A DNA stretch of 32,991 nucleotides, from contig WJJK01000031.1 in the NCBI GenBank assembly GCA_014729705.1, forward strand, positions 1-32,991, read 5' to 3'. A program made the translations under genes and the position numbers. Positions 1,243 to 32,991 of this stretch are shown in pieces. Source of the DNA: Candidatus Altarchaeales archaeon (GTDB lineage: Archaea > Altiarchaeota > Altiarchaeia > IMC4 > SCGC-AAA252-I15). The notes under the pieces were generated by a model, which made no database searches, was not told the DNA's origin, and was given only the letters and a program-made list of their open reading frames with translations. Numbering within the stretch: the stretch's first letter is position 1; every line of letters begins with the position of its first letter.

Positions 1243-1337
1243 CACGGCGTATGGAGATAAAATAAAAAGCTATCATAGATAGTTCACCTCAAACCGAGAA
1301 AAATGTGATAAAAATCTCATACACGAGGAGAGAAGTT

Positions 1338-2393: not shown

Positions 2394-2419
2394 TCTGAGT
2401 AAAACGAAGGAGACACGAC

Positions 2420-3118: not shown

Positions 3119-3141
3119 CCTGGCGGGGCGTGGCTGCCGGG
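3119..3141 (+). terminator. Weak GC-rich hairpin after the tube gene, possible terminator
   Basis: CCTGGC (3119-3124) can pair with GCCGGG (3136-3141), including one G-U pair, and is followed by A/T-rich sequence. Confidence 0.25.
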
Positions 3142-10763: not shown

Positions 10764-13193
10764 ATGCCAGTGCCACGCTCAGGACTATTCACACAGGAAG
10801 AGTTTGTAGGACGGAACATCCTTAAACTCGCTCCAGACGCTTTTGTAAGCATCAACGGGGCTCTTGGTGCTCGTGTGATCTCTCCTGCGAAAGTCAGTGG
10901 AAACCAGAATTTAGAAGTACGTGGAGGAGTCTCTTCTATCACAGTGAATGCGGCTATTAAACCCGCAGGAGCTACTCGTGCTACTATTGAGGTGATAGCT
11001 CCTCAGTATAAGGGTCTTCACGAGGACTACTATGTTACGATGCCTAACGGTACGCGTATACCCTATTTCGTTCCTATGATGGAGATCAAAGTATTCATGA
11101 AGGGACGTTTCCTCGACCCCTACACCAACAACCCTGTGTACTATCCCGTTTTTTGGGGCTTAATCCTTGATGTGACTGAGAACTACTCAGGAGGCGTGCA
11201 CACTTTTTCTCTTAATTGTGGGGATATACTGCACTGGTGGAAGTGGCAGAAGATAACTGTGAGGCCCGCAGACTCATCAGGAGGATTTGTTTTTGGGGCA
11301 CCTACTAACTGGCGTGTGCCGACTGTTTTTGAGCGTATGAACCCCTGGGAGATAATCGTAGCCCTCTTCATGGACAACTTTTTTCAGAACGAGGGCTCTT
11401 TTGGAGCTCTGTACAATTTTGTCTACATGAAGCTTTCTAAATCAGGAGTCTCCCCGGACTTCGGGGCTATTAATAGAGGAGATGCCGCTTCAACCTTTGG
11501 GGGACTGGCGCAACAAACAGTAAAGTACTGGGACCAGAGATTTGGGTTTAACTTCAACAATGCGACAGATCCTAACAAAGTCCCTGTAGAAATATACGGT
11601 ATGCGTAAGCAACTCAGTGTGTCCAGCATCATGGAGCGCGTGAATCTTTATCGTGAGTCAGAGAAGGCTAAGAGAAGATCTGATATCTTGGCTGAGATTG
11701 ATCTCGATGAAAGCATCCTTGGGAAGATCCAGCCGTTTGGCTCATTAGATTTGTATGGGGATGGTGGAGAGCCGTTGATACAGGCTAAACTAGACATCGC
11801 AAATGAAGTAGTAGAACAGACTCAAATGGAGTTTTTTGTAGACACGAACGGTACTATAGTGTTCAAACCTCCTTTCTATAACATGGATGTTGTGGATCCC
11901 GCGGTACCGGAGTACACTCTGGCACCACAAGATGTGATCAATTTCAGTGCGTCTCTAAACTCAGATAACATCGTAAACTATCTAGAGTGCACATCCCCTC
12001 AACATTATGATGTCCCTAATGCAGTAGAGCTTATAGGGTATCATATAGATTATGAGTCTATTAAGAGATTTGGTTTGAGAACAAAAAGTATCGCACTACG
12101 CTACGGTAATACATCAAGGAGTTTACGCCTTATAGCGGCAGCTGAGATGAGTAGAGTGAATGGTACGGCTTTTTCTGGGAGTGCCTCGATTCCTTTGCGC
12201 CCAGAGATTCGTTTGGGGTATCCTGTGTACATCAAGCATATAGATGCTTACTACTATGTCACAGGTATCACACATAGCTTCTCTTTCGGATCTGGAGCTA
12301 CGACGGACCTTTCGTTAGAGATGCGCCGAGATAGAGTCTTCGATGGAGGGGAAGTAACAGGAGTGCCCGGTACAGTTCTGAAGAGTAAGGTATATAGATA
12401 TAAATATCCTGATAATGAATCAACCAAGGGCAGTACAAATGACTCCACCGGCATAAGCATTAACCTTAAGAGCAAAGATCCTGTAGATCAGAAGATACAG
12501 AAGCTTAACCAAGAGCTTCAAGCTTTGAGAGGGTCTGGTAACGCAGAGGAACAGCAAAAGATAGAATCCCTAATCAACGAGCAGCTTAAGATCAGGGCGA
12601 TGAGGCAGAGTAAGATTTTGGATGGCCCTGCTACCGGAGGACTGTATGAAGTCAGTGATGCTGCGAATGTCCCCACTGATCATAACATAAAAATAGGGTC
12701 GGACCCGACATACATAGTACAGAAGATAACTTCGAATGAACTTCTTATGGTAACGGATGAGACAGTCCCGTATACGGACATCAATGGGTATCGTCATATT
12801 GGAGGATTCCCGTATGGTGCGAATTTGAAGTTGACTACGAACCTCAATTTACGAGATCTATCGGATTCAGAGGATAACGCCGCACTTCAAGTTGAAGCCC
12901 AAATAGGTACAGATGCAACCAGGACACGTGCGAACAGAACACGAAGAGTTACTCTTACTCCTGAAGAAGAAGCTAAGCTGGCTGAGGCGGAGGCTACCGT
13001 AGCCGCTGCAGGAGCTCCGAGGACAGCAGAGGAGGCCATAGGATCGCTACAAGAGCAGATTAATACTAGCGATGCTAATGCGCCAGCGAGTTCCGCTGTG
13101 AATATAGAGGTACAAGAAGTAAATCGAGGTGATGGCGAGCCTACTCAAGAGACTATTAATCAGATATTTGGTTTCGGGGACACTACACCGTAA
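10764..13193 (+). CDS. Baseplate hub protein (gp27-like)
   Basis: 809 aa, directly upstream of the spike gene. Beta-rich body (...MEIKVFMKGRFLDPYTNNPVYYPVFWGLILDVTENYSGGVHTFSLNCGDILHWWKW...IDAYYYVTGITHSFSFGSGATTDLSLEMRRDR) typical of hub proteins, with a low-complexity C-terminal extension. Confidence 0.6.
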   Translation: MPVPRSGLFTQEEFVGRNILKLAPDAFVSINGALGARVISPAKVSGNQNLEVRGGVSSITVNAAIKPAGATRATIEVIAPQYKGLHEDYYVTMPNGTRIPYFVPMMEIKVFMKGRFLDPYTNNPVYYPVFWGLILDVTENYSGGVHTFSLNCGDILHWWKWQKITVRPADSSGGFVFGAPTNWRVPTVFERMNPWEIIVALFMDNFFQNEGSFGALYNFVYMKLSKSGVSPDFGAINRGDAASTFGGLAQQTVKYWDQRFGFNFNNATDPNKVPVEIYGMRKQLSVSSIMERVNLYRESEKAKRRSDILAEIDLDESILGKIQPFGSLDLYGDGGEPLIQAKLDIANEVVEQTQMEFFVDTNGTIVFKPPFYNMDVVDPAVPEYTLAPQDVINFSASLNSDNIVNYLECTSPQHYDVPNAVELIGYHIDYESIKRFGLRTKSIALRYGNTSRSLRLIAAAEMSRVNGTAFSGSASIPLRPEIRLGYPVYIKHIDAYYYVTGITHSFSFGSGATTDLSLEMRRDRVFDGGEVTGVPGTVLKSKVYRYKYPDNESTKGSTNDSTGISINLKSKDPVDQKIQKLNQELQALRGSGNAEEQQKIESLINEQLKIRAMRQSKILDGPATGGLYEVSDAANVPTDHNIKIGSDPTYIVQKITSNELLMVTDETVPYTDINGYRHIGGFPYGANLKLTTNLNLRDLSDSEDNAALQVEAQIGTDATRTRANRTRRVTLTPEEEAKLAEAEATVAAAGAPRTAEEAIGSLQEQINTSDANAPASSAVNIEVQEVNRGDGEPTQETINQIFGFGDTTP

Positions 13194-13203
13194 TGGATAT
13201 CCT

Positions 13204-15222
13204 ATGAATTTCGACGGCAGAAGTTATAACCTTCCAGGAAGAAAAGTATCTCCGGGTGAAAAACCTACAATAGGGGCTCGTCCACGGACAGATACTACTT
13301 TTAAGGTCGGTAGGATACATACAGTTGATGAAGATCGTTATGTAATGACTGTAGAGCTATTTGGTCGTCAGGGTTTCTTATATGATGTGAGTATATCACA
13401 GCCGTACACGGGGACCTCTAGTTTCATAGCGGGTATGCCTGAAATAGGGTCAATAGTGATTTTGGGTTGTCAGGAGAATTTCACATGGCCTGTAGCCTAT
13501 ATCCCAAACTACTCTGCGGGTCTCGAGAGTATTAACACACGTACATGGCCTGACAGTGTTAAGACTGAAGATAGAAATGAGTTCTTCAACAGGTTTAAGA
13601 GATTACACCAAGGAGAAGTGGCTCTTGGATCTTCTAAAGGGTCAGAGGTATTTCTTTCTGACAGCCTTTCATTGTCAGATGATATGGGAGATAGCCTGCT
13701 ACTGAGAGGAAAAGATAATAGTATCATCTCATCTTCTCTGAGTAATTATCAGTTCTCAAGCGGTGTGTTTCTCAGCGCTGGTGTGGCTCGCAGGAACGGT
13801 CTTTTTGACCCTAAAAAAGAGAATGGATTTTTCGCCGTAAAAGAAGTCTTAGACAACAATAGAGCTACATACTCTCTTAAGACTTCTCAGGATCCTAATG
13901 TAGACCAATTCTTTACAGAATATCTGCTTGAAGTGTCTGACATCGATAATGCAGATATCCCTGAAAATGAAGTCACAAGCGGGCTTATCCCCGCACGAAA
14001 TCCTATAGCAGTATTTGGTCTTGGTAATCTCATAGGTAATCGTTGGGGTAAAGAAACCTATGGGCATATCCTTAGGGCAAGGCTTTTTAAAGAGTATAGC
14101 GATGACTTTGGCGACTTCAGTTTGGACGCGCTTACTGGTGAGGAAGCCACGCGATATGGCATGGCGTTTTCAATGTTCAAGCCAGACCGTAGAAATCCTG
14201 AGTTTGGAGCATTCTTTGGTATCGATAAAGAGGGACATTTTTATCAGTATATGCCGTCAGCTACGGCGGGGGGAATCGGAGACGGAAGGTCTATATCAAT
14301 CGTCGCGCGGGGCAATAAAAAAGAAGTATGGGGTCGTGACGCGAAGTGCGGATCGTCGTGGGACACCGTCCTTAATGGAGGTATACGCTGGGTCATAGGA
14401 AGTCACAATGAGCGAGACGGTAATCCTTATTCTGGACGCAGTGAGGACAAGAGGACTACAGGCTCTGTCTTCTATATGTATGGATCAGATGTGGATGAGG
14501 CTGTTTATGAGTTCGACGACCCCGACACAGAAGTAGCTAGGCTGAATCGTTACCGCAAGATAGAAAAAGTCGGCGGCATGTCGCGCTTGGAAGTAGAGGG
14601 CACGAGAGAGACTATCATTGAAGGAGGAGAAGCTCTTTCAGCAGGGTCTAATCTTGAGCGTATCTCAGGAGCGAAGACCGTTAGTATAGGTACAAATATG
14701 AATATCACCGTTGGTGATACATACGCTGAGAAGGTCATTAAGGAAAAGGAAGAGAGTTTTGGTAGCCGCCGGACTACGATAACATCAGGGGACAATGAGT
14801 TAATACAGCAGTCTCCTGTAGGAAATATAACAGAAGAGATTAAGTTCGTAGGTAACAGAGAAACTACAATCACCACAGGAAGCATCAAAGAGAATATAGT
14901 CTCTGCGGGAAGCCGCACGTTTTCTACGACTGCGGGTGATTTTGAAGCTACCACTAAGGCGGGAAACATCAAGCTTGAATCACTTGCTGGTCAGATAGAG
15001 ATGGCAACGAAAACAGGTCAAATAGATATTCAGGCCCTTCTTACTATGAATCTTAAGACCTCTCTTGCAGCTAGTGTAAACGTTAAGGGTGGGACTATAA
15101 ATCTCAAAGGAAAGACATCTAATCCAGCTACAGATGCTGGGGTAATAACAGCCAGAAGCCATCGGGATTATATCACGGGGGCCTTCTTGGTAGGTTCTTC
15201 ATCAGTGAATGCGTCTATATAA
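13204..15222 (+). CDS. Central baseplate spike protein (gp5/VgrG-like OB fold plus beta-prism C-terminus)
   Basis: N-terminal FKVGRIHTVDEDRYVMTVELFGRQGFLYDVSISQPYTG...MPEIGSIVILGCQENFTWPVAYIP is OB-fold-like. C-terminal short repeats (SIGTNMNITVGDTYAEKV...TITTGSIKENIVSAGSRTFSTTAGDFEATTKAGNIKLESLAGQIEMATKTGQIDIQA) fit a triangular beta-prism. The listed start at 13129 is a GTG that overlaps the hub gene; 13204 ATG preferred. Confidence 0.7.
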   Translation: MNFDGRSYNLPGRKVSPGEKPTIGARPRTDTTFKVGRIHTVDEDRYVMTVELFGRQGFLYDVSISQPYTGTSSFIAGMPEIGSIVILGCQENFTWPVAYIPNYSAGLESINTRTWPDSVKTEDRNEFFNRFKRLHQGEVALGSSKGSEVFLSDSLSLSDDMGDSLLLRGKDNSIISSSLSNYQFSSGVFLSAGVARRNGLFDPKKENGFFAVKEVLDNNRATYSLKTSQDPNVDQFFTEYLLEVSDIDNADIPENEVTSGLIPARNPIAVFGLGNLIGNRWGKETYGHILRARLFKEYSDDFGDFSLDALTGEEATRYGMAFSMFKPDRRNPEFGAFFGIDKEGHFYQYMPSATAGGIGDGRSISIVARGNKKEVWGRDAKCGSSWDTVLNGGIRWVIGSHNERDGNPYSGRSEDKRTTGSVFYMYGSDVDEAVYEFDDPDTEVARLNRYRKIEKVGGMSRLEVEGTRETIIEGGEALSAGSNLERISGAKTVSIGTNMNITVGDTYAEKVIKEKEESFGSRRTTITSGDNELIQQSPVGNITEEIKFVGNRETTITTGSIKENIVSAGSRTFSTTAGDFEATTKAGNIKLESLAGQIEMATKTGQIDIQALLTMNLKTSLAASVNVKGGTINLKGKTSNPATDAGVITARSHRDYITGAFLVGSSSVNASI

Positions 15223-15224
15223 TT

Positions 15225-15842
15225 ATGCCAGTCATACCACAAACAATGAGTGCCGCAATATTAGGTCAGATGACTGCTAAACAGTACACCGGGAAGAATG
15301 CCTCTGATCTTGCTAGTGCTGTAGGCACCGCAGTTTCGGGCTATATAGTAACACCTAATTTAGTTTCGTGTACGTTGTCTGGGGTAGCAGGTCCTTTAGG
15401 AAATATACAGAGCGTGGCTGTTGCAGGGATTGAGCCTAATTCTATGAGCACTCTAATGTATACGCGTGCTTTGAATAAGAATATTAGTGGACGTGATATA
15501 GGAGGGCTGTTCTCCGCTGTAAGCACAGGAATAGTGCAAATCCTTCAAGGTTTGGTATTGACTGGGACTGCAATAGGGATAGCTACAGGAGGGGGCACAG
15601 GTTTTTTTACCGCGGTAAACGAGAAAACACTGTCTGGTCTCATATTCGCACAGATGACTTTGAGGCAAATGACAGGTAAAAATGCGAGAGACTTGTCTGA
15701 TTGCATAAGCTATGGTGTGGTAACCCAATTAAAGACTACGGCAAAAGTTACCGTTGTGTCTGCGGGTACTATAGCTCCAGTAGCACCAACAGGTCCCGTG
15801 GCTGTTACAGGTATACCGTCAGCCACGACATCAATATCTTAA
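15225..15842 (+). CDS. Protein of unknown function built from three tandem ~65-aa repeats
   Basis: 205 aa. Repeat cores: SAAILGQMTAKQYTGKNASDLASAVGTAVSGYI / STLMYTRALNKNISGRDIGGLFSAVSTGIVQIL / SGLIFAQMTLRQMTGKNARDLSDCISYGVVTQL. Confidence 0.75.
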   Translation: MPVIPQTMSAAILGQMTAKQYTGKNASDLASAVGTAVSGYIVTPNLVSCTLSGVAGPLGNIQSVAVAGIEPNSMSTLMYTRALNKNISGRDIGGLFSAVSTGIVQILQGLVLTGTAIGIATGGGTGFFTAVNEKTLSGLIFAQMTLRQMTGKNARDLSDCISYGVVTQLKTTAKVTVVSAGTIAPVAPTGPVAVTGIPSATTSIS

Positions 15843-15855
15843 CTAAGAGGACGAG

Positions 15856-18800
15856 ATGTCATCTGAGATTTTCAACCTCAATTCGCTTCCTACAAACGAC
15901 ACGGTATCTCGTGGGGCTCGTGTAGGACAGAAGAATGCTAGAACGACTAAGACCGTTTCTGTAGGCCCCGAAGACAACGTAAAAACGGGGGAGCAAAATG
16001 TCAATGCTGATTACCTCGTTGAGTCTTCTCTCATAGGAAATGATCTTAAAGGTTATGGTACGTTCACACCGGAGAGTCCCGTTGTTACAGGGTACACAGG
16101 TCCTGTAGACCTGAACAATGGTGATGTGATCCGTGCCTCAGGGGACACTACGTTCTATACGGTTACAGGTTTAGACGGGACTAACCTGTATGTGGCCTCT
16201 AAGTATCAGGGAGAAACAAGCGTATCCGGGGTCTGTACTATACGTAAGACTAAGCTGGATAGTGCTAAGTATATAAGAGCTAAGGGTGTCGGTTCTTCCA
16301 CAGTTGTTGTATATGACAAGAATAAGAATGAGTGGTCAGTAACTGGATCAGAGGGTGTGACAGGTCCTTTTGTAGCTCCTACAGGAGAAACTGGTCTTGA
16401 TACGGGGATGTCTATAGAGTTCCTGCCGGGTGCGTCTCAGGCACAGCCTGATTTGATGACTGTAGATACGGTCTATAAGACCCTTGTTAAAAACAACAGC
16501 AATGAAATAACGGATCTCGGTCTGAGCCCTATTCCTTACCCTCATGAGACGCTGAAGGTTTATTGGGGATCCACAGATGGAACTTTAGAGGAAAAGACAG
16601 AGTTCATACCAGGGTCGGGTAGTTTCGCAGGGGATTATATTGTCAACTACTCTCAGAATCCTACTCTTCAGTGGCCTAGACCCCCACTTTCTGAGCGTCA
16701 GGTAGCCTACATTAAATTCTTAGGTGACCTGGAGGATGAGGTTCAAGTTGAGGCTATAGATGCTACATTCCAGGGGGGATTCCCTGTAACAAAAGCATCA
16801 GAAGAAGCTGATGCTCCGAACGTCTCGGTTAGAGATATTATACCAGATTCAGATAGCGTGAAGGTTGGCGGTACTGCACTCACGCGCAACAGCGAGTATC
16901 TCATCAATACCGCTGCCGGTATCGTCAACCTTATCACGCACCAGTATCAGGAAGAGCTTGTAGATACAGTTTCTTATCCTAAACGTCTTATGTGGGACGG
17001 CGTGAGCGTGATCCGCGGTGTAGGCAAAAACGATCTCACGAATCCGGACACTGTAAACAATGAAAACCTAGTTATCTCAGGTGTCACAGGGCTACAGGGC
17101 ATTACGGGTGTCGTCTATTTCGAGGACACAGATGACAACAACCTAATACGTGAGACAGACTACTCCCTCGAGTATACATCAGGTGCGATACGGCTTACTC
17201 AACCAATTCAGGAAGATGAAGCTGTGTTGGTATCATACTATGTCGAAGGGGAGGATGAAGAAAAAGAAAAGGTGGCGTCTAATTATCTGCGTACGAGCAG
17301 ATATCCTGTTTTACGTGATTCGGTCGTAATGACAAAGCGCCAGGACACGACACAGAGTGCGGGTGTCACAGTCATGATCGAAGGTCAAGATTTTGACATC
17401 TCTTACCTCACAGGATGGATTACGATTTACGATACAGACCTTCTTTCTGAGGAAGACTTCCAGGTTGAAGTGTCGTATACACCGATGTCTCCCATAAACT
17501 GTATCCTACAACAAAACCCTAATGATGATACCTTCTATAGGATGACTATTGTAGACGATCATCTTAAGATAGTGGGTGACCCTAGCACATTTGTATATGA
17601 AGTTGAGAACCCGATTGCTTCAGTGCTCCAGACAGATTATTTCAAAAAGCCCACCGATCCGGATCGTTATTCTTATAATGGTTCGTTAGCGGATAGTGAC
17701 TTTTTGTATATAAGAAACGGTACCGACCCTCTGAAAACCTTGGATACTGCAGGCTATACATATGAGGATGATAAGAGACAAATAACTCTTGACGTGGCTG
17801 TCAACGATAATATCCCTACGGACACAGACGACATACTGGCTACGTACAATGTAGTATCGGATGTTCTCCCGTACGCTCCTTTACAGCCTATTTTTCCTGT
17901 TATCAGTGAAGGCGGTAACAGTATTGTCATTGAGGGATTTGATAGGACAGACCTTCTTAAACCAAATAAGCTTCTTCGTATAGATAACTTCGACCCGGTC
18001 GCCACATATTACTTCCGTATCAAATCTGTAGTGTATGCTAATGGCAATACAACGGTCACTTTTTATGGGACTTTTCCAGAAGATATAAGGATCCCTACGT
18101 TTTACACGTTTGATGATTTCGTGTCTTGGGAAGAGATACCAGAAGCTACAGAGGTAAACAGGAGCGCGCTTAAGGGATCTACGTCACTCCAGTTCCGTGG
18201 GGTGACCTTAGAGTTTCTAGAACTTGTTCGGACAGATGGTCTGCTTTTAGTTAATGGTACCGATGTATACACAGTGACGTCGGTGGAGCAGAGTGGCACA
18301 GAGGCTACGGTCAATATCTTCCCGAAGCTTCTGGGGCCAGTCACTGGAGATGTATATGCCTCAGATCTTCCCGTTGTGGCTGAGGGGGAGGCTACACTTC
18401 AGCCGATGCACCATGTGATAGATGACCCCGAACAGCCTGCTTTTACCATATGGTATCAACCTCCAACGGACGCACAAGGCACAGTCTTGTTCGAGGGGTC
18501 AGCAAATATCCTTATTACAGAGGATAGCTTGGTCCTGTATGAATCTATAGAGGGTATCTCTAATCCTTCGCCTTATGTATACACTCTTTCTTCTTATGGA
18601 TCTATACGAGCGTTGGTAGATGCGATTAAGGCTACAAAGTCTACGTTCGCACAGCACGTTGATGTGCTTCCGAATGTTCCTGAGTACTACCCCTTCACGA
18701 CACTACCAAGCCACGTTGCAGAGGAGTTGTATTTCTTGCCTAATGGTGCTTGGAGCTCGACGCTCATCATACCTTTTGAGGAAGGCGCTTTACAGCAGGC

Positions 18801-21800
18801 TCCGTATACAGTTACGATAGCACCTGAGCTGAAGCGGAGAACTATCCTCGAGGCAGTGAAGGATAGCTCTTCTTTCGATGTTCCTGAGATAGACCGTACG
18901 TCTCTGTTTGGGTCTGGGGATTTCCTGTACTTCTTGGACCAGATAGAAGGGACACGTTACTTCTTTGAGGTGGTAAGCTCTAATTTGGTACCCACGGACA
19001 ACCCGGAAGACACGCGCGTCTTTTTGTCTGATACCTTTAGGGAGAATCTTCTTGATCCTCGTCTGTTCAGAGGTACCGGAGTTTCTTGGCAGAACGTTGA
19101 GGACCAGATGCTCAGCGTGGATTATACCAATTCTACGGTGACCTTCTCCGGTACCAGCACGTCCATCGCTTCTGGGATCCTTCTTAAGTTCTCAGATATG
19201 TATGTGTACAACGTCGACGAGGTAACTCAGGGCACTGCAGACTACACACTTAAATTGGCCCCTGCGATATCCTCGAATGTTACCGTGCAGAATTTTGAGG
19301 GATACGTACAGCGTACTGCACAGGGTATTGCGTGGACAGAACTTTCTAATTTAAATGAGACACGCTTGGTACAGGACTCAGACTATGGTATAGTTACGGG
19401 GGGTATAACACTTACGAGGCCTGTACAGCGCCTCGAACGTTTCCGCTTGAGTTACATGGGAATTGATACACATGCTGAGGATGAAGGAAAAGCTGTCACA
19501 TGCACCTGTAAGTACTTCACATCTCTCAGCGCTAACTCACAAGTAGATGTGTACTTGGATTACCTGAATATTGACCAGTTCTATCTTCAGAAACTTACGG
19601 AAGAGCGCTTCCTGGAGATTGTAACCGTTCCTCAGATGGAGCAGATCCTACAACAGAAGGGTGGCTCTGGGGGACAATCCGCGGACACAGGAGCCACGGA
19701 TGATTCAATCCCTGCGTATGAGGGAGGACTTGCCGACAAGTACTATCGTCTTCGTGATGAGAAGATTAAGATGCAGCTTTATCTACGCATCTACAAGTGG
19801 TATAAAGCCAGGCTTCGTAGCTTTGCGTCAGAGTTGCAGCTTACGATGGGATTTCAGTTAGGTAACAGCAACTCAGTAGGTACGCGAAACGGGCACTACA
19901 CACTTCAAGACGCATATGTAGAGAACGGTGATTACACACTCACGACAGACTCAGATATCCAACAGATACAGAACGGTTTTTCTAAGTTCTTCCCGGTAGG
20001 ATATGAGGGTACTGCTCCTTTGTACTATGACAGGTTCTCCAACGAGTACAGGACCTACAACGAGGTTTTCTGTTACAACCTAAATTACTATGATGAGTCC
20101 GGAAACTTTTTACGTAGCGAGGGTCGCGCGAAGTCGGTAAACCCGTATTGGGTTCAAAATCTTGACTATACAATTTTAAACAATACGAGTGATAATCTGG
20201 TCGCTTATTATGAGCGTGAGATCCCATCAGATGACCGCACATTCAGTGCTGATGATACGGCTTATAGCTGGCTCCGCAGGATATCTACAGGAGACACTTT
20301 CGAGATAGAAGGGTATAAGGACTCACACACAATAGGTTCTTTTAGCTCTGGTACGGATAAGGTAAGCCAAAAACCTTATGATGCTATCGTTTTGGCTGAA
20401 AATACTACTTTCTCAGAGAAGGGCATCCGGTCATTTAATATCACGGTTAGATCCGGTGTGCCGTACTACGTAACGGATGAGGGGTCCGTCACGCTCTCAG
20501 ATCTAGAAGCTGCATTAAGCGGAGAGGGCTATAATATCATTGTCAAGCGCCAGCAGGTGGAACCCTTCCCAATGTATGATGATGAGTTCAGCTATGGGCG
20601 TAAGCTCGAGGGCGGGGCTGTAGACGGACATGTGCGGGATAAAGATCGCATAAAGAAATTCTCTCTCGCCGCTCTTCTTACTATTCTCTTCGGGGTACCT
20701 GCTGTAAAGAGGCATAAATATGTTACAGTTCAGGTCGGGAGATATGACGAGAACTCTTTGGCGTTTACTACTGTGGAAAACATAAGTGTGGACCTGTCTG
20801 AGTTGAATTTCTTCCAGGAGCGTAAGGTTTCTACAACCGAGGATGCCCTTTACGAGAACTATCGAGATGAACCAAATGACTCTCTTAAGGGATTTGATAA
20901 GTATTTCTATTTGTCGTTCGAGAAGATCTATGATGAGAAGGAACGCCGTGGGTATCGTGAAGGTTTTGTCCTACGTACGAAAGACCGTAATCTTTGGTTC
21001 CGGTTTGTATTGGGCGGCTCTACACAGGTAGCTGATGAGTATGGTTTCACCACAAGTGAAGTTTATAAGAACTTCTACTATCCGGATAACATGTACCGTT
21101 ATCTCCTCCTTGAGAAACAGGCGTGGGAAATTGAGGAGATGATCATACGGGATATCTACGATTACAACGATAAGATCGCGCGAGCCTTCAACGAGGGTCA
21201 GATCAATCTTGCATATATTAGCAAGTTCAAGGGATACCTGGCGCAGTACATAGACGGAGAACCCGCCGGTATCTCAGAATGGATAGCTTCTCGCATATCT
21301 AAGTATGCTCCTCACTTGGCGTTTTTCCTTGGGGCATATACTTCAGATGGAGACGCGGGACCTCTCAATGGTATTCTTAAGCCTGATGGATTGCATGATG
21401 AAGATAGTGCCTCGGCAGCTATTGCTCAAACTTTTAAGGATACAACCGATGCCAAGGAGGATTACACTAACTTCTATGCTAAGTACCAGACTTTCTCGGG
21501 TCTAAACCACATTAATAATCAGGACTGGAAGTATGATTATATAAGATGGGTTTTGTCTCTAGAAGAAGGCCTAATGTATCAGAAGGATGCTCGTGTTTTG
21601 TACGACGAATCCGGGCAGATAAAGATGGGTTTGCGAGAGCTCCAGGCTCTGAGATTTAGAAAATCTCCAAACACTACATATACCTTCTCCAATACTTCAT
21701 ACACGGTAACGTCCACGGCGCTCAGCATAACCACTACGGTGGGTTTTGGAGGGTCTGAATCTTCAACACTTACATACTCCTATAATCTTCTTTCTAAAGG

Positions 21801-24800
21801 ACAGTATAAGACTCTAGATACGCTCGTTGGAGAAATTAATTCCCAGAAGTTAAGAGGGGTAAATATCTTCCAAGCCGAGGTTCTGTTTGATCATTATCCT
21901 TATGGTTCTCAGACTACTGAAAATCTTCTCCAAGGGACATGGAGTGCGAATTTATCTACATGGGCGACCTCCTTACTAACGAATGTTGCTGACCACCGTG
22001 TAGCTGACCCAAGGATTCTTTTCCTCAATAAGTTTCTTGAAGATTCTGTACCGCTGGATCATGTACGTCTTGAGGATCGTGAAGGAACTCTCTCTGGTGT
22101 CACAGGAATGGCTCCTTCTGAGAATCCCTTAGGAGTGTGGCCTATATATACCTCTAATGGGAACCCTAATAAAGAACCTATTGAAGGTTTGCCCGTAGCC
22201 GGTGAGTGGGAAACTCTAGAGGACAATGTCTTTGATGTCATACAGATACGCTCTATAGGGGCTCCGTGGACACTATCTTTTTCGGATATGGAGGATGGAG
22301 ACTTTAAAGATTATATGGGACCTCCTTCAATTTTAAAGAAAATTGATGATGAGGGCGCTATCTCTAGCGTAGAGTTGTCCCAGCTTCGCTCTTCTGTAGT
22401 TTCTAACCAACCCCAGGTGACTATACTTAAGAAGTTAGTACTAACTAGGCGTGGTGTTCAAGACACAGTGGTTGAGTATAATCTCCGTCAATACTCTACT
22501 ATAAATAAGCTTGTGGAAGCTATTAACGCTACCAGGTTTAATAAAGACGGTATTGTTGACCCCGAGGGAGATAGGCAGTACTTTGAGGCCCGTCTTGTAG
22601 GTGACAAAGATTTACAGGGTGAGGTAAATAGTTATGAACTTATGGCTGAATACGAGCAAATACGTAAGTCCTTTAGGGTCTACAGTAATGAGTACGAACA
22701 GGTAACTCGTTATTCTTTTACCCCCTCAGCCGGTCCAGTTATCTCTAACAATCCTTTGACTAATGTATTTGATTTAGAGACTGATATTAATAGCTCTGTG
22801 ATACGCGGTACGGATGACACACAGCTTTATAGTGCGGATTTGATCCAGAATGGATCAACGTTGAAACTTCAGCCTACACAGGGATATTTCCCAACGGGAG
22901 CATCTGATAGTGTGACCCTTGAGATTGATGGCTCTGTAGTAGGGGCAACGGGTGCCTTAGAATCTATCGAGCTGTCAGTACCAAATCCAGGGAGTCTCAC
23001 AGGAGATTATCAGATACAGGAGTCAACGTATGAGATACCTGAGACGCAAGATGAACTCATTCTATCGTCTAAGATAAGGTACTTTAGTGATAGCTTGGCT
23101 AAGACATCGGGGGCATCTTCTCAGCTCAATGATTATGTAGTGGGGTGGCAATTAGCTGAGGATCCAAATGAAACAGGGGGCTCGGTCACTCTTCGAGCGC
23201 CACGGAATCGGTATAGCCTGTACTCTACGCATAACTTCAATATAGAGGGACCAGAAGCCGCTTATCAGACCACACTGAGTAGCTTCCCGCTTGGACTACG
23301 CAAAGACATCCTGGCGTTTGATATCTATTGCTGGGATGATAAGAATCCAAGCGGTGAGAGATACTATGAGGTAAGGGACAATTGGATCTATTTCGTAAGT
23401 GCTAATGTGAAAAACCACGGTATCCCTCTTGCGGGATCGGGCCATCCTAATGCCCCCTATAATGAGAGCTTGGCAGATCTTTTAAGGAGAATAAACACAG
23501 ACCAAATCGTCAATAAGTATTTCTATGCAAATTTGAAGTTCACTCGTGAAAGCAAGCGGGACCCAGGATATTTCGAGTATACATACCTCCCGAACTTCAA
23601 GAAGGATGTACCAAAATCAACCCTGGATACGCTCTATTTGAGACAGGACGCTGCCTTAACGTTAAGGGATACGGAAGACGCAACGTATCGGATTAATCCT
23701 AATGGGGCTTTTGATCCGTCCAATACCGCTACGACGTACACGTCATCTAGCTTGGATATCAGGTCTGAGGTAAGAGTAATTTCTGTGTCTCCTGGAAACG
23801 GATATACATTTTCAGCATCGTCGTTTGTAGTCAATGATGGAGCAGACACACTATCGCTTTCTGCGACGTGGAAGTACAATTATAGTTATACGAAGACCTT
23901 CCTTTTCAGTGATGCGTCCACGGATTCTATATCAGAGCTTGTTAACGCTATCAACGCAGAAACCGTACCTGTAGACGGTACGCAGCTTTTTGACGCTGTT
24001 CTTCTTAACGATGATGATAGTGATGAGCTCTTGGCGACAAGCGGTAACTTGAATACTAGTTATGTAACGCTAACTAAAACAGGTTCTGTGAATGCTCTTA
24101 AGATAAAGATGAATACTACAGGAGGGGCCGGGTATACCGTACTGTCTCCTACTTACAGCATAAGAACACAGAGGGATAGGCTTATACTTAGGTGCACCAT
24201 CCAGTACAATGGGACGTACAATCCCCCAGCATACAACATTAGCTCGGGCAAGTACACACTTCTGTCTCTTACAGAGTCAATATCTAATTTGAAGCCTGTA
24301 TCTGACCCCATATTCACAGGGATATTCGATGCGAAAGTCTTTAACCTAGAATATGCTCTAGATGATGCATCGGAATTGTTGGATGTAAATACTTCTATCA
24401 CGGGGACTGTCTACGCAAAGTTTTTGGCTACGCATAGCTATGATTTGATTGGATATAGCTTATCATCTGTTGCTGCACTTATTAATGAAGACACTGTTGA
24501 GTCGGGCGTGACAGCCACATATGTCTCAGCTTACGGGACATATGAGGCGGGTTATTTACGTCCACAGCCTACGTACACAGCGATACCCACAGCAGTGACA
24601 GTGGACATGGATTTGAGAGAGGTACGGGGCGTGCGCCTTTTGAATATGGATAATCCGGGCATTATAACTGTAGAAGAGCTACAGCTGATAATCAACTCAT
24701 ATGAAAACTACAGAGTAGACCTTCCTGATTTGAGTACAAGTCTATCAGACTGGGTTGACTCCGTTAAGGGAGACACGCAAACTGGGATGCTGTCGGTAAC

Positions 24801-25275
24801 TGTCCTTCCTATGTCAGTGGAGAGTTCTCCATACGGGTTGATTGATGAGATAAGCGCGCAGTCACTTAGTACTAATGAACCGGCACATGTGTATTTCGGG
24901 GTGATGGGAGACATACGCTTCGTACAGATATCCGACTACAACCTGTATACGCAGATCAATTACATAAAAGAGCGTCTTGCTAAACCGTGGAAGAACTCTG
25001 AGGGGAAGGTGGTCCCAGACTATTATACCCCCGAGCAGTACAACACGAATAATCCGTACGCGATAGATGATGAGAACTTCCTGAATTGGCTCCGAAGTAC
25101 GCGTTACGGGCAGATTCGCAACAGCGTTATAAATGAGGCAACCGTTGCGAACATGTACTTCTGGCTGTATTTGAAGTTCCATAAGGAGTTTGGATGCGAC
25201 CAACAGAAGAAACTTCTCGAGGATCAAATCGAGAGGGACGAGAACGATCAAAAGATAATCGGACAGGCCACGTAG
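15856..25275 (+). CDS. Giant (3139-aa) baseplate-region/tail-associated protein, modular and repeat-containing
   Basis: Uninterrupted 9.4-kb ORF with SD (GAGGACGAG), in-line with the tail operon between spike and gp25/gp6-like genes. Multiple beta-rich repeats separated by helical stretches. Confidence 0.85.
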   Translation: MSSEIFNLNSLPTNDTVSRGARVGQKNARTTKTVSVGPEDNVKTGEQNVNADYLVESSLIGNDLKGYGTFTPESPVVTGYTGPVDLNNGDVIRASGDTTFYTVTGLDGTNLYVASKYQGETSVSGVCTIRKTKLDSAKYIRAKGVGSSTVVVYDKNKNEWSVTGSEGVTGPFVAPTGETGLDTGMSIEFLPGASQAQPDLMTVDTVYKTLVKNNSNEITDLGLSPIPYPHETLKVYWGSTDGTLEEKTEFIPGSGSFAGDYIVNYSQNPTLQWPRPPLSERQVAYIKFLGDLEDEVQVEAIDATFQGGFPVTKASEEADAPNVSVRDIIPDSDSVKVGGTALTRNSEYLINTAAGIVNLITHQYQEELVDTVSYPKRLMWDGVSVIRGVGKNDLTNPDTVNNENLVISGVTGLQGITGVVYFEDTDDNNLIRETDYSLEYTSGAIRLTQPIQEDEAVLVSYYVEGEDEEKEKVASNYLRTSRYPVLRDSVVMTKRQDTTQSAGVTVMIEGQDFDISYLTGWITIYDTDLLSEEDFQVEVSYTPMSPINCILQQNPNDDTFYRMTIVDDHLKIVGDPSTFVYEVENPIASVLQTDYFKKPTDPDRYSYNGSLADSDFLYIRNGTDPLKTLDTAGYTYEDDKRQITLDVAVNDNIPTDTDDILATYNVVSDVLPYAPLQPIFPVISEGGNSIVIEGFDRTDLLKPNKLLRIDNFDPVATYYFRIKSVVYANGNTTVTFYGTFPEDIRIPTFYTFDDFVSWEEIPEATEVNRSALKGSTSLQFRGVTLEFLELVRTDGLLLVNGTDVYTVTSVEQSGTEATVNIFPKLLGPVTGDVYASDLPVVAEGEATLQPMHHVIDDPEQPAFTIWYQPPTDAQGTVLFEGSANILITEDSLVLYESIEGISNPSPYVYTLSSYGSIRALVDAIKATKSTFAQHVDVLPNVPEYYPFTTLPSHVAEELYFLPNGAWSSTLIIPFEEGALQQAPYTVTIAPELKRRTILEAVKDSSSFDVPEIDRTSLFGSGDFLYFLDQIEGTRYFFEVVSSNLVPTDNPEDTRVFLSDTFRENLLDPRLFRGTGVSWQNVEDQMLSVDYTNSTVTFSGTSTSIASGILLKFSDMYVYNVDEVTQGTADYTLKLAPAISSNVTVQNFEGYVQRTAQGIAWTELSNLNETRLVQDSDYGIVTGGITLTRPVQRLERFRLSYMGIDTHAEDEGKAVTCTCKYFTSLSANSQVDVYLDYLNIDQFYLQKLTEERFLEIVTVPQMEQILQQKGGSGGQSADTGATDDSIPAYEGGLADKYYRLRDEKIKMQLYLRIYKWYKARLRSFASELQLTMGFQLGNSNSVGTRNGHYTLQDAYVENGDYTLTTDSDIQQIQNGFSKFFPVGYEGTAPLYYDRFSNEYRTYNEVFCYNLNYYDESGNFLRSEGRAKSVNPYWVQNLDYTILNNTSDNLVAYYEREIPSDDRTFSADDTAYSWLRRISTGDTFEIEGYKDSHTIGSFSSGTDKVSQKPYDAIVLAENTTFSEKGIRSFNITVRSGVPYYVTDEGSVTLSDLEAALSGEGYNIIVKRQQVEPFPMYDDEFSYGRKLEGGAVDGHVRDKDRIKKFSLAALLTILFGVPAVKRHKYVTVQVGRYDENSLAFTTVENISVDLSELNFFQERKVSTTEDALYENYRDEPNDSLKGFDKYFYLSFEKIYDEKERRGYREGFVLRTKDRNLWFRFVLGGSTQVADEYGFTTSEVYKNFYYPDNMYRYLLLEKQAWEIEEMIIRDIYDYNDKIARAFNEGQINLAYISKFKGYLAQYIDGEPAGISEWIASRISKYAPHLAFFLGAYTSDGDAGPLNGILKPDGLHDEDSASAAIAQTFKDTTDAKEDYTNFYAKYQTFSGLNHINNQDWKYDYIRWVLSLEEGLMYQKDARVLYDESGQIKMGLRELQALRFRKSPNTTYTFSNTSYTVTSTALSITTTVGFGGSESSTLTYSYNLLSKGQYKTLDTLVGEINSQKLRGVNIFQAEVLFDHYPYGSQTTENLLQGTWSANLSTWATSLLTNVADHRVADPRILFLNKFLEDSVPLDHVRLEDREGTLSGVTGMAPSENPLGVWPIYTSNGNPNKEPIEGLPVAGEWETLEDNVFDVIQIRSIGAPWTLSFSDMEDGDFKDYMGPPSILKKIDDEGAISSVELSQLRSSVVSNQPQVTILKKLVLTRRGVQDTVVEYNLRQYSTINKLVEAINATRFNKDGIVDPEGDRQYFEARLVGDKDLQGEVNSYELMAEYEQIRKSFRVYSNEYEQVTRYSFTPSAGPVISNNPLTNVFDLETDINSSVIRGTDDTQLYSADLIQNGSTLKLQPTQGYFPTGASDSVTLEIDGSVVGATGALESIELSVPNPGSLTGDYQIQESTYEIPETQDELILSSKIRYFSDSLAKTSGASSQLNDYVVGWQLAEDPNETGGSVTLRAPRNRYSLYSTHNFNIEGPEAAYQTTLSSFPLGLRKDILAFDIYCWDDKNPSGERYYEVRDNWIYFVSANVKNHGIPLAGSGHPNAPYNESLADLLRRINTDQIVNKYFYANLKFTRESKRDPGYFEYTYLPNFKKDVPKSTLDTLYLRQDAALTLRDTEDATYRINPNGAFDPSNTATTYTSSSLDIRSEVRVISVSPGNGYTFSASSFVVNDGADTLSLSATWKYNYSYTKTFLFSDASTDSISELVNAINAETVPVDGTQLFDAVLLNDDDSDELLATSGNLNTSYVTLTKTGSVNALKIKMNTTGGAGYTVLSPTYSIRTQRDRLILRCTIQYNGTYNPPAYNISSGKYTLLSLTESISNLKPVSDPIFTGIFDAKVFNLEYALDDASELLDVNTSITGTVYAKFLATHSYDLIGYSLSSVAALINEDTVESGVTATYVSAYGTYEAGYLRPQPTYTAIPTAVTVDMDLREVRGVRLLNMDNPGIITVEELQLIINSYENYRVDLPDLSTSLSDWVDSVKGDTQTGMLSVTVLPMSVESSPYGLIDEISAQSLSTNEPAHVYFGVMGDIRFVQISDYNLYTQINYIKERLAKPWKNSEGKVVPDYYTPEQYNTNNPYAIDDENFLNWLRSTRYGQIRNSVINEATVANMYFWLYLKFHKEFGCDQQKKLLEDQIERDENDQKIIGQAT
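19657..19728 (+). other. Flexible Gly/Ser-rich linker inside the giant protein
   Basis: Encodes KGGSGGQSADTGATDDSIPAYEGG between two helix-rich segments. Confidence 0.5.
21668..24560 (+). repeat. Protein-level repeat region of the giant ORF (IN-type modules)
   Basis: Recurring pattern Y-x-L...(Y/S)-x-(T/S)-(L/I)...(A/E)IN...(F/Y)xAxL: GEINSQKLRGVNIFQAEVL, EAINATRFNKDG...YFEARL, TDINSSVIRGTDDTQLYSADL, NAINAETVPVDGTQLFDAVL, ESISNLKPVSDPIFTGIFDAKV, ALINEDTVESGVTATYVSA. Confidence 0.6.
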
Positions 25276-25412
25276 CAAAGATTAGGGTCGTTAGAGCAGG
25301 GTCGGGTAATAGCGAGCTTAAAGGACATCTAAAGGCTCTTATGTATCATATGGAGAGGCTGTTGAAGGTTGAAATGAAAGAGGCTACTCGTCGCATAAAG
25401 AGGAAGCTATAA
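25194..25412 (+). CDS. Possible small basic protein, 5' end overlapping the giant ORF (start uncertain)
   Basis: 72 aa. Its stop overlaps the next start (TAATG at 25410-25414), and it fills the 136-nt gap between the giant ORF and the next gene. C-terminal part GHLKALMYHMERLLKVEMKEATRRIKRKL is helical and basic. Confidence 0.4.
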   Translation: MRPTEETSRGSNREGRERSKDNRTGHVAKIRVVRAGSGNSELKGHLKALMYHMERLLKVEMKEATRRIKRKL

Positions 25413-27133
25413 TGGGATTTCGTATTAAATACGACCAAAAACCAGAGCTCGTCAAGCCTAAATTGGATGACGTAGATATACCGACTGCCCCGGTCATAGA
25501 TCCAGCGCAGATTACCCCTCCTCAGTCTTTTCTTAGACCTCAGGAACAAACCCAGGATGTAGGTCAGGAGGAGTCTGGTAAGGGATACAACTGGCGGAAT
25601 TGGAGTTTAAACTTAAGCTTCTCTGAAATAGAAGGAATCATGGGGGCTGCGGAAAGTGTTCTAGAGGCCCTAGATAGTCTAACTGAGACGCTGTCGGTTT
25701 TCTTGAGACTCCTACGTGTGTTTACTAGTGATTTGAAGTCTATCATGCGTATTCTTAAGACTCTTTTGAAGCAAGTCATAAAACAGCTCCGCGCTTTTGT
25801 AGAGGGTTTTTCTTCTACAGGTGTTCATGCGTCTCTAATAGGGTTTGACGGGTTCGACAAAAGAGATAGTAAGTTTCAGTTTCCTATTAATGGGGGTCTT
25901 AGAGAGTTCGTAGCAAAAGTGAATGAGACATGCTTGAACAGCAAAGACCCGGATGCTCCTAAATACAGCAAACCAGACACGGTTGGTGGTTTTATATTCG
26001 CTATGATTGGTAGTACGAACGACCCTGAGTTCTTAGAGGATATGGTTCATAATTTCAAGATACTTGGTAATTTTTTCAGATTCAGGTTTCCTCTACCAGC
26101 CCCGCCTAAGAACGTAAGAGCAGTCCCCGGGATCTACAGAGATCGAGAGGATGGAGAAAAGAAGCTAGGTGTTAAGATAACGTGGGAAGACCCTCAAACT
26201 CCGATCACTAGGTTCTACATATTCCGTAGTCCCTATAAAGAGGGTGTCGTTAAACAGATAGAAGTGGATGGTGAAGATATAGATATTAGAGTGTTTGAGG
26301 ATGAAGGTTTTCCAGTACATAAGCCTGTGATACCCGGCAGACCGAGATACAGCTATATCGATTTTGATGTCAATCCAGAAGACATATACTACTATAAAGT
26401 TTTCAGTGCTTTAGGGCGCAGCTTCATAGAATCTGATAAAGAAGAAGATCAGGTATACAAAAGGATAGATGCTCCAAACGCTTCTCAAACAGTGAGTGCG
26501 GAACCTCGTCTTTGCATACCCGTATCTGAGTTAGAGAAGTACACACTGCTTGATGAAGACGGAAACGTTGTTAGCCCAATTGATTTAAAGGGAGATTGGT
26601 ACTCTCTTAGTTTACGTACTATGCTCGGTCCGGCTTTTGAAAAGCTCCTAGACAAGATGGACTCAGTTAGCGACCGCCTTCTTGGTATGGTCAATACAAG
26701 TTCAGATGCGATGTCTGATTACGTTAAGACTTTTCAAAGTAAGATAAGGACTTACCTAGATGTTGTAAGGAGAGTGTTGGATATCGTTGATCAGATGCTC
26801 TCTTATCAGCTGCGCGGTAACTTCATTTTGGTAGAGATCTATCCTGAAGTAGGAGGGATAGAAGGCTTTGTTGATAGATTCAATAGAGCAACTGCAGAAG
26901 ATGCAAAGGATCAAGACGGCAACAAGATAGCTACTGCAGGAGACGGTATATCAGACCTGGCTACAGAAGGTGTCATGTTTGGGGTCACCATGGTATACGG
27001 TTTCCCTACGGCGGACAGTGACTATATCAAAGAAAACGTACCTGATAAACAACAGAACAAGTTTGAGGGTAGCCTAGAGGACACGCAGAAGGCCCTTGAA
27101 GCATTCCTTAACATATTAGGACTAGGGGGATAG
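25412..27133 (+). CDS. Tail/baseplate-associated protein with a FnIII-like domain
   Basis: 573 aa, SD GAGGAAG. Internal PAPPKNVRAVPGIY...LGVKITWEDPQTPITRFYIFRSPYK...YSYIDFDVNPEDIYYYKVFSALG matches FnIII strand pattern; flanked by amphipathic helices. Confidence 0.65.
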   Translation: MGFRIKYDQKPELVKPKLDDVDIPTAPVIDPAQITPPQSFLRPQEQTQDVGQEESGKGYNWRNWSLNLSFSEIEGIMGAAESVLEALDSLTETLSVFLRLLRVFTSDLKSIMRILKTLLKQVIKQLRAFVEGFSSTGVHASLIGFDGFDKRDSKFQFPINGGLREFVAKVNETCLNSKDPDAPKYSKPDTVGGFIFAMIGSTNDPEFLEDMVHNFKILGNFFRFRFPLPAPPKNVRAVPGIYRDREDGEKKLGVKITWEDPQTPITRFYIFRSPYKEGVVKQIEVDGEDIDIRVFEDEGFPVHKPVIPGRPRYSYIDFDVNPEDIYYYKVFSALGRSFIESDKEEDQVYKRIDAPNASQTVSAEPRLCIPVSELEKYTLLDEDGNVVSPIDLKGDWYSLSLRTMLGPAFEKLLDKMDSVSDRLLGMVNTSSDAMSDYVKTFQSKIRTYLDVVRRVLDIVDQMLSYQLRGNFILVEIYPEVGGIEGFVDRFNRATAEDAKDQDGNKIATAGDGISDLATEGVMFGVTMVYGFPTADSDYIKENVPDKQQNKFEGSLEDTQKALEAFLNILGLGG

Positions 27134-27134
27134 A

Positions 27135-28565
27135 ATGTCTGATCCCTATCTGAAAAATCCGTATTCATCGAATGATAGCGAGGCTGTTGTAGAGAGCATC
27201 GTAGATATGATGCTTCAAACAGAGGAGCTATACTCTGACCAATTCAATAACTACCTGAGACGCATACACAGGGTGCGTAGGAATATAAAGAGAGAGCAAG
27301 AGAAGCTAAAGCTTTTGCTTGCCGAGAATAATTTGAGTCCTAGTCTCCCTCAATTTTCGAAAGTCTTAGGAGATTACTTATATCCTGATAGTGAGTCTGA
27401 ACCGGCACAGACATACGTAAACCCAGAAGAGTCCTACACAAAGACGCACACGGTACTTGAGGTCTATACACTAAAAGAGATAGCAGCACAGCAGCCCGGG
27501 GTCAATGACGCTATTAGAGACTCCATGGAGCGTATATATAAAGAGCGTAATATGCTCTCCAAGCTGACGTACAAGTTCCATAAGTTGAATAATGTATTCG
27601 GTGAGTCTATAGAGAGAAAAAAGAGCTCTTCTAGCTATAAGGACGTAAAGAAAAAGAATAGAGACATAGCTGTTCTTATATCAGAAGTGCGTAGTTTCCG
27701 GGATGTGATACAGCAGATCCCAGACGAGCTTGCAGCATCAAAAGCAAAAGAGGATTTGAATACAGGAATGAACGTTTATTGTTCAGCTTACATGGTACGT
27801 AAAAAGCAAGTCATAAAAGATGCGGCAGATCTCTCTGAAGACTTCTCTGATGATACCAGTTTGCAGGACACAATAAATGGTTTGCTTGCTATCATGTCTC
27901 TTTCAATGCCTAAGCAGTACACGGGGACCGTAGAGAATAAGAAAAGCATACTCCGTCTTCTTGATGGTGCTTTAACAGATCTAGGTCTTTTACTAGCAGA
28001 CACAATCGGGGAGCTTAATCTTCTTGCAGGATCCTCAGGTATACCTAATGAAAAGGTAGAGAGTATCAGGCGTAATATCATATCGGTTCTTCGTTCACAG
28101 GTTAAGTCCAAGGTAACAACTAAGACAACACGCGATCAGATGCTTGCAGTTAATGACTCTGATATCTCAGAAAAAGTACGTAAGAAAGATCGTTTCGTGA
28201 ACGCTTTGAATAGGATGAGCGATGCGGTGACCCAAGGAGCAGAGGCTATGGGTGAGGTCGCGCAGGAGTTCTCAAAGCGTTTATTTAATACCGCGGTCCT
28301 CTCTTCAGGGTTTCCTGAGACTTTTCAGAAGACTGGATTAGAGGCTTTAAAGGATAACCAAAGAGAGGTAGTGCGTCAGAGGTATGGAGGAGAAATACCT
28401 TTTTGTGATGAGGTGATAGTAATCAATGATGACGGGACTAAAGAGTTCGTTAAGAAAGAAGATGCGACAGAGATAGAGGACGGTACGTACAGGAAGAACT
28501 CAGATCTTAAGAGAAATCAATACTTTGACGAGTTTGGGAGAGACCCAAATGACGTCAATACCTAG
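27135..28565 (+). CDS. Coiled-coil-rich protein of unknown function in the baseplate operon
   Basis: 476 aa, SD GGGGGA, 1 nt after the previous stop. Long charged helical stretches (LRRIHRVRRNIKREQEKLKLLLAENN). Confidence 0.7.
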   Translation: MSDPYLKNPYSSNDSEAVVESIVDMMLQTEELYSDQFNNYLRRIHRVRRNIKREQEKLKLLLAENNLSPSLPQFSKVLGDYLYPDSESEPAQTYVNPEESYTKTHTVLEVYTLKEIAAQQPGVNDAIRDSMERIYKERNMLSKLTYKFHKLNNVFGESIERKKSSSSYKDVKKKNRDIAVLISEVRSFRDVIQQIPDELAASKAKEDLNTGMNVYCSAYMVRKKQVIKDAADLSEDFSDDTSLQDTINGLLAIMSLSMPKQYTGTVENKKSILRLLDGALTDLGLLLADTIGELNLLAGSSGIPNEKVESIRRNIISVLRSQVKSKVTTKTTRDQMLAVNDSDISEKVRKKDRFVNALNRMSDAVTQGAEAMGEVAQEFSKRLFNTAVLSSGFPETFQKTGLEALKDNQREVVRQRYGGEIPFCDEVIVINDDGTKEFVKKEDATEIEDGTYRKNSDLKRNQYFDEFGRDPNDVNT

Positions 28566-28595: not shown

Positions 28596-29336
28596 ATGTC
28601 TATTGATATCAAGCTACAGAACGCCTGTGACCATCGCATTAATTGGATTCGGTCGGAGTTAGAGACTGATCGTAAGACCATTTTTCTATCGTATCCTATA
28701 GCGTCTACGGCCTCTTTTAAGCTTCGTATCAATAATGTAGTTCTTCCTAAGAGTTCCTACGGATTCAGTAATAGTGAAGAAAGCACTGTAGTAGAGCCTA
28801 CTAGGTATGTAAGTCTTAAGAAAAAATCCAAGCTGAATGACCCCATTATTGAGGCGCAGTATACGACATTTTTGGATTACTGCCCTAAGTGTGTGGGTCT
28901 TAGGTACATAGATGATCTTACGTATGATAAATCCGGAGACCTTAATACGGTACGGAATGAATATCTTCTTGTACAGAATGTTGAGAAGCGTGTTATAACA
29001 GAGTTGGGGAGTAACGTTTTCCACGAGAATATGGGTACTAATCTCCATTCTCTCGTTAATCAAAAAATCCTTGATTTTGACTTAATTCGAAATCAAATCA
29101 CGGACCAGATAATAACTAGTCTTAATCGCCTAAAGGAATCTCAGCGTACCCTTTTAGCATCTAGAAGAGAAGTTTCTGACGGTGAGCTTCTGGACAAAAT
29201 TGGCGAGGTTATTGTAGAGCGGGCTGAAGACCCGACCATTTTGCGTGTTACTGTTACTTTTACGGCACGCAGTGGAAGAACACTTGAATACACGCAGTTC
29301 CTGGAACTGTCTAGACAAAGGGTCGCTTTCGTATGA
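28596..29336 (+). CDS. Baseplate wedge subunit, gp25-like, with CPKC motif
   Basis: YLLVQNVEKRVITELGSNVFHENMGTNLHSLVNQKI...LRVTVTFTARSGRTLEYTQFLEL resembles gp25-like wedge proteins. Overlaps the gp6-like gene by ATGA. Confidence 0.65.
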   Translation: MSIDIKLQNACDHRINWIRSELETDRKTIFLSYPIASTASFKLRINNVVLPKSSYGFSNSEESTVVEPTRYVSLKKKSKLNDPIIEAQYTTFLDYCPKCVGLRYIDDLTYDKSGDLNTVRNEYLLVQNVEKRVITELGSNVFHENMGTNLHSLVNQKILDFDLIRNQITDQIITSLNRLKESQRTLLASRREVSDGELLDKIGEVIVERAEDPTILRVTVTFTARSGRTLEYTQFLELSRQRVAFV

Positions 29337-32713: not shown

Positions 32714-32991
32714 ATGGCCAAGAATTTAGGCGAAGGCGTGTCCACTGTTCTTAATGCTGAAGGTTACGCATTCGATAAAGTAGTTTTTCAGAAGGGTAAG
32801 CCCCCGTTCGATGCGGAGCTTAACCTCGCACAAGAACTGCAGGAAATAATCACTCAGAGATCGACGGCTCATCTTCCTTCGGGATGGCTTAGCTATCGCC
32901 CCTATTATACCTCTAATACTCTTCAGAATAGCTTCTATACCCAAAATCCCACAGGGGCAAAGCCTGAGGTAGCTTTGGTAAATGGGTGGCC
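32714..32991 (+). CDS. Baseplate/tail protein, N-terminal part (3' end outside window)
   Basis: Frame open from ATG 32714 to the window end: MAKNLGEGVSTVLNAEGYAFDKVVFQKGKPPFDAELNLAQELQEIITQRSTAHLPSGWLSYRPYYTSN... Preceded by GGAC and starts 3 nt after the gp6-like stop. Confidence 0.6.
   Translation, partial: MAKNLGEGVSTVLNAEGYAFDKVVFQKGKPPFDAELNLAQELQEIITQRSTAHLPSGWLSYRPYYTSNTLQNSFYTQNPTGAKPEVALVNGW

Follow-up and report, generated by a model that had tools for sequence, protein, structure and literature searches.

What does a protein of 3139 amino acids do within the baseplate operon of a contractile tail? We addressed this question in a stretch of 32,991 nucleotides (the window), which is a whole contig (C284) from a metagenome bin with 405 contigs. 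A single unbroken frame there encodes a protein of 351 kDa with a pI of 4.5, referred to below as the giant (Table 1). The preliminary description had reported an uninterrupted 9.4-kb ORF, and this was confirmed: the ORF starts with ATG, an AGGA Shine-Dalgarno-like sequence lies 7 bases 5' of the start, the probability of 3139 open codons arising by chance at the base composition of the window is ∼1e-77, and the 14 full-length homologues described below are each one open frame. Its length, put earlier at about three times that of the tape measure, is 3.07 times as great (3139 versus 1023 aa), with the tape measure assigned by position and length. Because dN/dS was 0.12 to 0.14 (two pairs), indicating purifying selection, the giant is a genuine, constrained protein.

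Table 1 Features of the window and modules of the giant (aa, amino acids; residues are those of the giant).
Feature	Position	Strand	Basis or remark
Tail sheath	2..1216	+	phrog_2839 2.9e-25, PF17482 1.5e-10; 5' end beyond contig
Glu/Lys-rich, highly charged 362-aa ORF	1305-2393		Between sheath and tube; without family match
Probable tail tube	2420..3118	+	phrog_985 0.0035, position
Two ORFs at tail-assembly-chaperone position	3283-3951, 3954-5015	+	Position only; compared with phage G gp181/182
Tape measure, 1023 aa	5021..8092	+	Position and length; without family match
Tail tube initiator-like	8096..9166	+	PF23980 0.0066, under cut-off
Tail protein with M23 peptidase-like domain	9167..10759	+	PF01551 8e-4, under cut-off
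Baseplate hub (gp27-like)	10764..13193	+	phrog_52 7e-6; relatives phrog_400 3e-7
Central spike (gp5-like)	13129..15222	+	phrog_4011 0.0055; relative Gp5_trimer_C 2e-4
p205, small conserved protein, spike-giant interval	15225..15842	+	Conserved in relatives
Giant, 3139 aa	15856..25275	+	Single unbroken frame
N-terminal region, residues 1-230	15856..16545	+	Small tail-fibre-type barrel module via alignment to compact members
Hairpin-type beta repeats, residues 230-600	16543..17655	+	Y..DY..G.I.L....E.V.VSY, read in sequence; similar hairpins in giant-versus-giant profile match
Barrel and helix-bearing superunit 1, residues 685-998	17908..18849	+	Self hhalign; AF2 pLDDT ∼80
Superunit 2, residues 1002-1153	18859..19314	+	Repeat of superunit 1 (self hhalign)
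Most conserved core, residues 1164-1400	19345..20055	+	Hairpin, 'NIDQFYLQKLTE', Gly/Ser linker, helix pair; common to LR745208 branch
Gly/Ser-rich linker, residues 1267-1290	19654..19725	+	KGGSGGQS, about residue 1267
Expandable module array, residues 1907-3002	21574..24861	+	∼175 aa in compact homologues
C-terminal helical anchor, residues 3003-3139	24862..25272	+	Conserved YxWLxxxxxxEfGC-type motif
p573, conserved partner gene	25412..27133	+	Homologue of 867-aa ORF beside LR745208 giant (HMM E 1.5e-11)
p476, helical, fast-evolving	27135..28565	+	Two ORFs in several relatives
gp25-like baseplate wedge	28596..29336	+	phrog_975 2e-6
gp6/gpJ-like baseplate wedge	29333..32710	+	PF04865 3.7e-15
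Contig-end-cut protein start	32714..32989	+	Homologues with PSII_BNR-type beta-propeller; candidate adhesin

The giant had been placed between the spike and the gp25/gp6-like wedge genes, and this location is right, but the genes do not adjoin: p205, p573, and p476 intervene. The sheath and gpJ of the window match the huge phages LR745208 (485 kb), Tunturi_5 (308 kb), and Bacillus phage G (497 kb). The two ORFs at the tail-assembly-chaperone position hold a place like that of gp181 and gp182 of phage G, which are made via translational frameshift. The cell-wall enzyme domain of the tail protein preceding the hub varies, from M23 peptidase-like in the window to an SLT transglycosylase in one relative (L021, 3555-4883; E 6.5e-28). 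By eye, a fibronectin-like segment was seen in p573. The fastest-evolving gene of the row was p476, and its positional counterpart in L105 and L108 (5085-7019 in L105) seemingly carries a phage-lysozyme-like domain, also judged by eye.

Scans of IMG/VR recovered ∼20 contigs with close homologues of the giant. Full-length close members number 15 with the window included and range from 3139 to 3779 aa, the 14 homologues being 34 to 47% identical to the window giant. As far as the loci reach, all 15 have the same gene row: hub, spike, p205, giant, p573, p476 (sometimes split), gp25, and J. A scan with gpJ yielded 80 loci, 65 of them longer than 9 kb and 4 of these too short upstream; a member of the giant family adjoined p573 in 57 of the 61 loci with enough upstream sequence, all relatives being known from metagenomic contigs and some gpJ loci representing one phage assembled twice. 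The exceptions were L105, L106, and L108, in which two separate ORFs, one of them 719 aa long, occupy the giant's place, and L111, in which the giant is replaced. In L105, with its split giant, the 719-aa remnant is preceded by an ORF (3-1124) that looks LamG/concanavalin-type by eye and is possibly an adhesin insertion. The family is found beyond the phage of the window and so is not peculiar to one phage, and even in divergent phages the giant keeps to one position within the hub-spike-gp25-gpJ operon. Since the family was absent from GTDB contigs (two pattern scans) and from 198 related prokaryote genomes, it is not a host gene family in the prokaryote genomes scanned. It is a conserved, orthologous family of huge bacterial viruses, a large and mostly uncultured group.

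A second, more distant branch was represented by the uncultured huge phage LR745208, in which an unannotated giant ORF of 3642 aa (230286-241214) lies directly upstream of a p573 homologue. This ORF was located through its p573 neighbour and is too diverged for a single-family HMM; its IMG/VR relatives (3504-3924 aa) sit in an identical gene row. With p476 as the sole exception, the flanking genes are homologous across the branches (hub, 1e-66; spike, 4e-22; p205, 2e-9; p573, 1.6e-12; gp25, 3e-35; J, 9e-138). In a profile-profile comparison of the giants, residues 1011-1350 of the window giant aligned with 1361-1764 of the LR745208 branch (prob 79.8; E 1.4e-5, the E values of the family comparisons coming from small custom databases), and reversed-sequence controls gave prob 0.2 and 0.03. 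The LR745208 giant and the window giant share a family (by profile), a gene row, and N- and C-terminal motifs, whereas the direct confident alignment is limited to the barrel/core region. Both branches carry the N-terminal motif RGARxxxxNAxTT, and the patterns R-x-x-x-x-N-A-x-T-T (N terminal) and Y-x-W-x3-R-x2-R-x2-G (C terminal) were found by eye in most of the family. In LR745208.1 the row is split between opposite strands, with the giant and the p573 homologue (230286-244267) on the forward strand and gp25 and gpJ (263.8-268 kb) on the reverse strand.

Compact members gave the clearest view of how the giant is built. Complete compact members are single ORFs of 1535 to 1783 aa, and the family as a whole spans ∼1.5 to 3.9 kaa. 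Two stretches of the compact profile aligned with the window giant, one over 1383 columns (8-1490 to 5-1906; E 4e-123) and one at the C terminus (1665-1774 to 3003-3132; prob 96.3), while the alignment of the compact G-type profile with the X-type profile spanned 723 columns (E 2.4e-23, prob 99.5). Based on these profile comparisons, both branches and the compact members evidently form one family. The preliminary description had suggested a fusion of several peripheral proteins; we rejected this because each compact homologue is one ORF that runs colinear with the giant, an alignment that argues instead for a single protein made larger through duplications and insertions within it. The giant would thus be a 1.5- to 1.8-kaa protein enlarged mainly by the array that separates the C-terminal anchor from the core, with growth rather than shrinkage assumed as the direction, without a rooted tree. 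Size differences within the family come mainly from this beta-module array (∼1907-3002) and from duplicated barrel units. Profile self-comparison revealed strong internal duplication, with several helix-bearing beta modules of ∼110 aa in the C-terminal half, and the window giant lacks ∼232 aa (at residue ∼1160, superunit 2) and ∼254 aa (∼2070) that are present in most relatives. The conserved parts of the family are both ends and the central helical core.

Alternation of beta modules with helices, together with a Gly/Ser linker, had been noticed at the outset, and both were present. The array consists of tandem beta modules with one helix each that are flagellin-IN-like; the flagellin IN motif (PF07196) scored 19.6 bits, below the cut-off of 22.7, hence "IN-like" only. 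Models built with 16 sequences had a mean pLDDT of 65.6 for residues 640-1839 and 63.8 for 1940-3139. The confident parts were the tandem modules at 2589-2929 (mostly 80-94) and the barrels at ∼680-1200 (mostly 75-90). The core (1164-1400) had low confidence as a monomer, and the most conserved segments (1202-1394 and ∼3000-3139) were mostly below 50 despite predicted helices. We infer from the models that these conserved segments of low confidence may be interfaces needing partners.

In Foldseek searches of the PDB, the top match of the 640-1839 model was a baseplate chain of JBD30 (E 5.5e-4, prob 0.82), followed by a tail-tip chain of phage Chi, although the matches were local only (whole-query TM, 0.05-0.1, and close to 0.06 for this model against the PDB). 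Several predicted baseplate-J and wedge proteins were among the best matches in the viral library. The 1940-3139 model had no significant Foldseek match; hits of this C-terminal model to a Thermus RNA polymerase beta-prime insert and to outer-membrane barrels (prob <0.25, TM ∼0.05) were rejected. At the level of individual beta-barrel modules, the giant is weakly similar to distal tail barrels (T5 pb9, DT57C) and small tail-fibre modules, but the similarities lie below curated cut-offs and in the giant the barrels are strung together many times. For the T5 pb9 B-domain (PF21430), the window giant scored 13.1 bits against a cut-off of 27, and weak matches occurred in three family members (best E 0.0077). 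Weak matches to distal tail proteins had E values of 0.18 and 0.043, and one compact member matched the tail-fibre family phrog_1980 (E 1.3e-5).

Sequence searches of Pfam, PHROGs, NCBIfam, and the PDB with the giant returned no convincing match, nor did tblastn against 50,697 phage records. Clear homology to a nonstructural family, raised earlier as a finding that would count against a tail role, did not emerge: no catalytic domain was found in Pfam, NCBIfam, or the PDB. The NCBIfam hit DGQHR_dnd_1 (15.4 bits against a cut-off of 450) was attributed to chance. We also rejected the giant as the tape measure, since a separate ORF (5021-8092) holds that place and the giant is beta-rich. The region of S-PM2 inspected for a comparable cyanophage giant contained none. 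Literature searches found no paper on this family or on its baseplate position in huge phages.

Taken together, the giant probably belongs to the baseplate of the contractile tail, as part of a wedge or of a peripheral ring. This structural reading, close to the baseplate scaffold or peripheral ring first proposed, follows from the invariant synteny, the co-divergence with gpJ, the purifying selection, and the barrels, whose likeness to modules of distal tail, baseplate, and tail-fibre proteins is weak but consistent. From pair to pair, identity in the giant closely tracked identity in gpJ (r = 0.96, 91 pairs), and identity in the array alone did so too (r = 0.93). Against this structural reading stand the weak and local structural matches and the mean pLDDT of 64-66. 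Phage G and Tunturi_5 share a homologous hub, gp25, and gpJ with the window (Tunturi_5 also the spike) but the giant, p205, and p573 were not detectable in either; in phage G one gene of the 335-aa class (gp186) lies between gp185 and the gp25-like gp187. Because no copy is detectable in these two phages and L111 replaces it, the giant is not essential to this baseplate type.

The modular build of the giant also invites a reading as an adhesin that binds the receptor, or as a very long fibre, mounted on the baseplate: its beta-rich modules are in tandem and are gained and lost, compact members carry a small tail-fibre-type barrel, and synonymous divergence jumps in patches. In one close pair, dS reached 0.46 in one block of the giant gene, compared with 0.03-0.12 in its first 1600 codons, a jump inside the gene that suggests local recombination. 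However, the C terminus, variable in many fibres, is among the best conserved parts of the giant, and we saw no receptor-binding end that is hypervariable or has been exchanged. Even the array keeps pace with gpJ in its divergence and shows no trace of swapping. This combination is typical of a co-assembled structural part and unlike an exchangeable adhesin tip. A separate BNR-propeller gene 3' of gpJ is moreover a better adhesin candidate, and we regard an adhesin or fibre as quite improbable. As a separate observation, synonymous divergence between L031 and L033 over codons ∼1600-2800 of the giant was several-fold above that of the neighbouring genes, which points to recombination inside the giant gene.

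Partly overlapping with the wedge or peripheral-ring role is the idea that the giant is a vastly enlarged counterpart of T4 gp7 or P2 gpI, the third chain of the gp6-gp6-gp7 wedge core. Those proteins, too, are large, have a helical core, and are encoded in a wedge operon close to gp6/gpJ and gp25. The giant neighbours gp25 and gpJ in an operon without another recognised gpI/gp7 homologue, its conserved helical core looks partner-dependent in the models, and a cyanophage wedge initiator was a weak predicted-structure match in the viral library (E 1.4e-3). Yet searches of Pfam, PHROGs, and NCBIfam gave no match to the gp7/gpI families, the giant is ∼3 times the size of gp7 and has another place in the gene order, either p573 or the gene 3' of gpJ could be that chain, and phage G and Tunturi_5 have gpJ without a giant; such a counterpart seems unlikely. 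The place in the operon, taken by itself, would also suit an assembly factor. Cargo genes can sit after the spike in other contractile systems, and the giant gene comes directly after the spike and p205, but a protein that leaves the baseplate, whether as a scaffold for assembly, a chaperone, or injected cargo, is very hard to reconcile with whole-length purifying selection, gpJ-like co-divergence, tail/baseplate-type modules, and the lack of a catalytic domain in the searches above.

If the giant is a wedge or peripheral-ring component, its conserved core and ends would serve as assembly interfaces with gpJ, gp25, p573, or other copies of the giant, and six copies per baseplate are assumed from the baseplate symmetry. 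As an arm or rim, the beta-module array would make the baseplate larger and could carry or position receptor-binding proteins; a change in this rim could then reach gpJ and the sheath ring and couple adhesin movement to them. More tentatively, and with some doubt on our part, the giant may make up a novel layer, unseen in T4, P2, and Mu, of outer ring or struts built from one giant protein whose reach and girth are tuned by beta-module duplication between fixed anchors. If so, baseplate size would evolve through change in one gene.

The giant is a new kind of part in a known machine, known here from metagenomic contigs. Huge phages are common in metagenomes and their tail machines are almost unknown; the family offers a conserved, recognisable baseplate gene across their branches. 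Huge phages encode predicted proteins of up to 7,694 aa, some of them tentatively structural (Al-Shayeb et al., PMC7162821). The family profile can annotate "hypothetical" giants beside gp25 and gpJ, with the gene order as a lineage marker. Compact and giant forms together are a natural experiment on the growth of contractile baseplates, and the compact members (∼1.5-1.8 kaa) are small enough for structural study.

The bin of the window contains a second phage-like contig (C168), which carries a terminase. Because its closest IMG/VR relative (74%) shares sample number 3300028920 with a giant-bearing contig of 183 kb, the two contigs of the bin may come from one phage.
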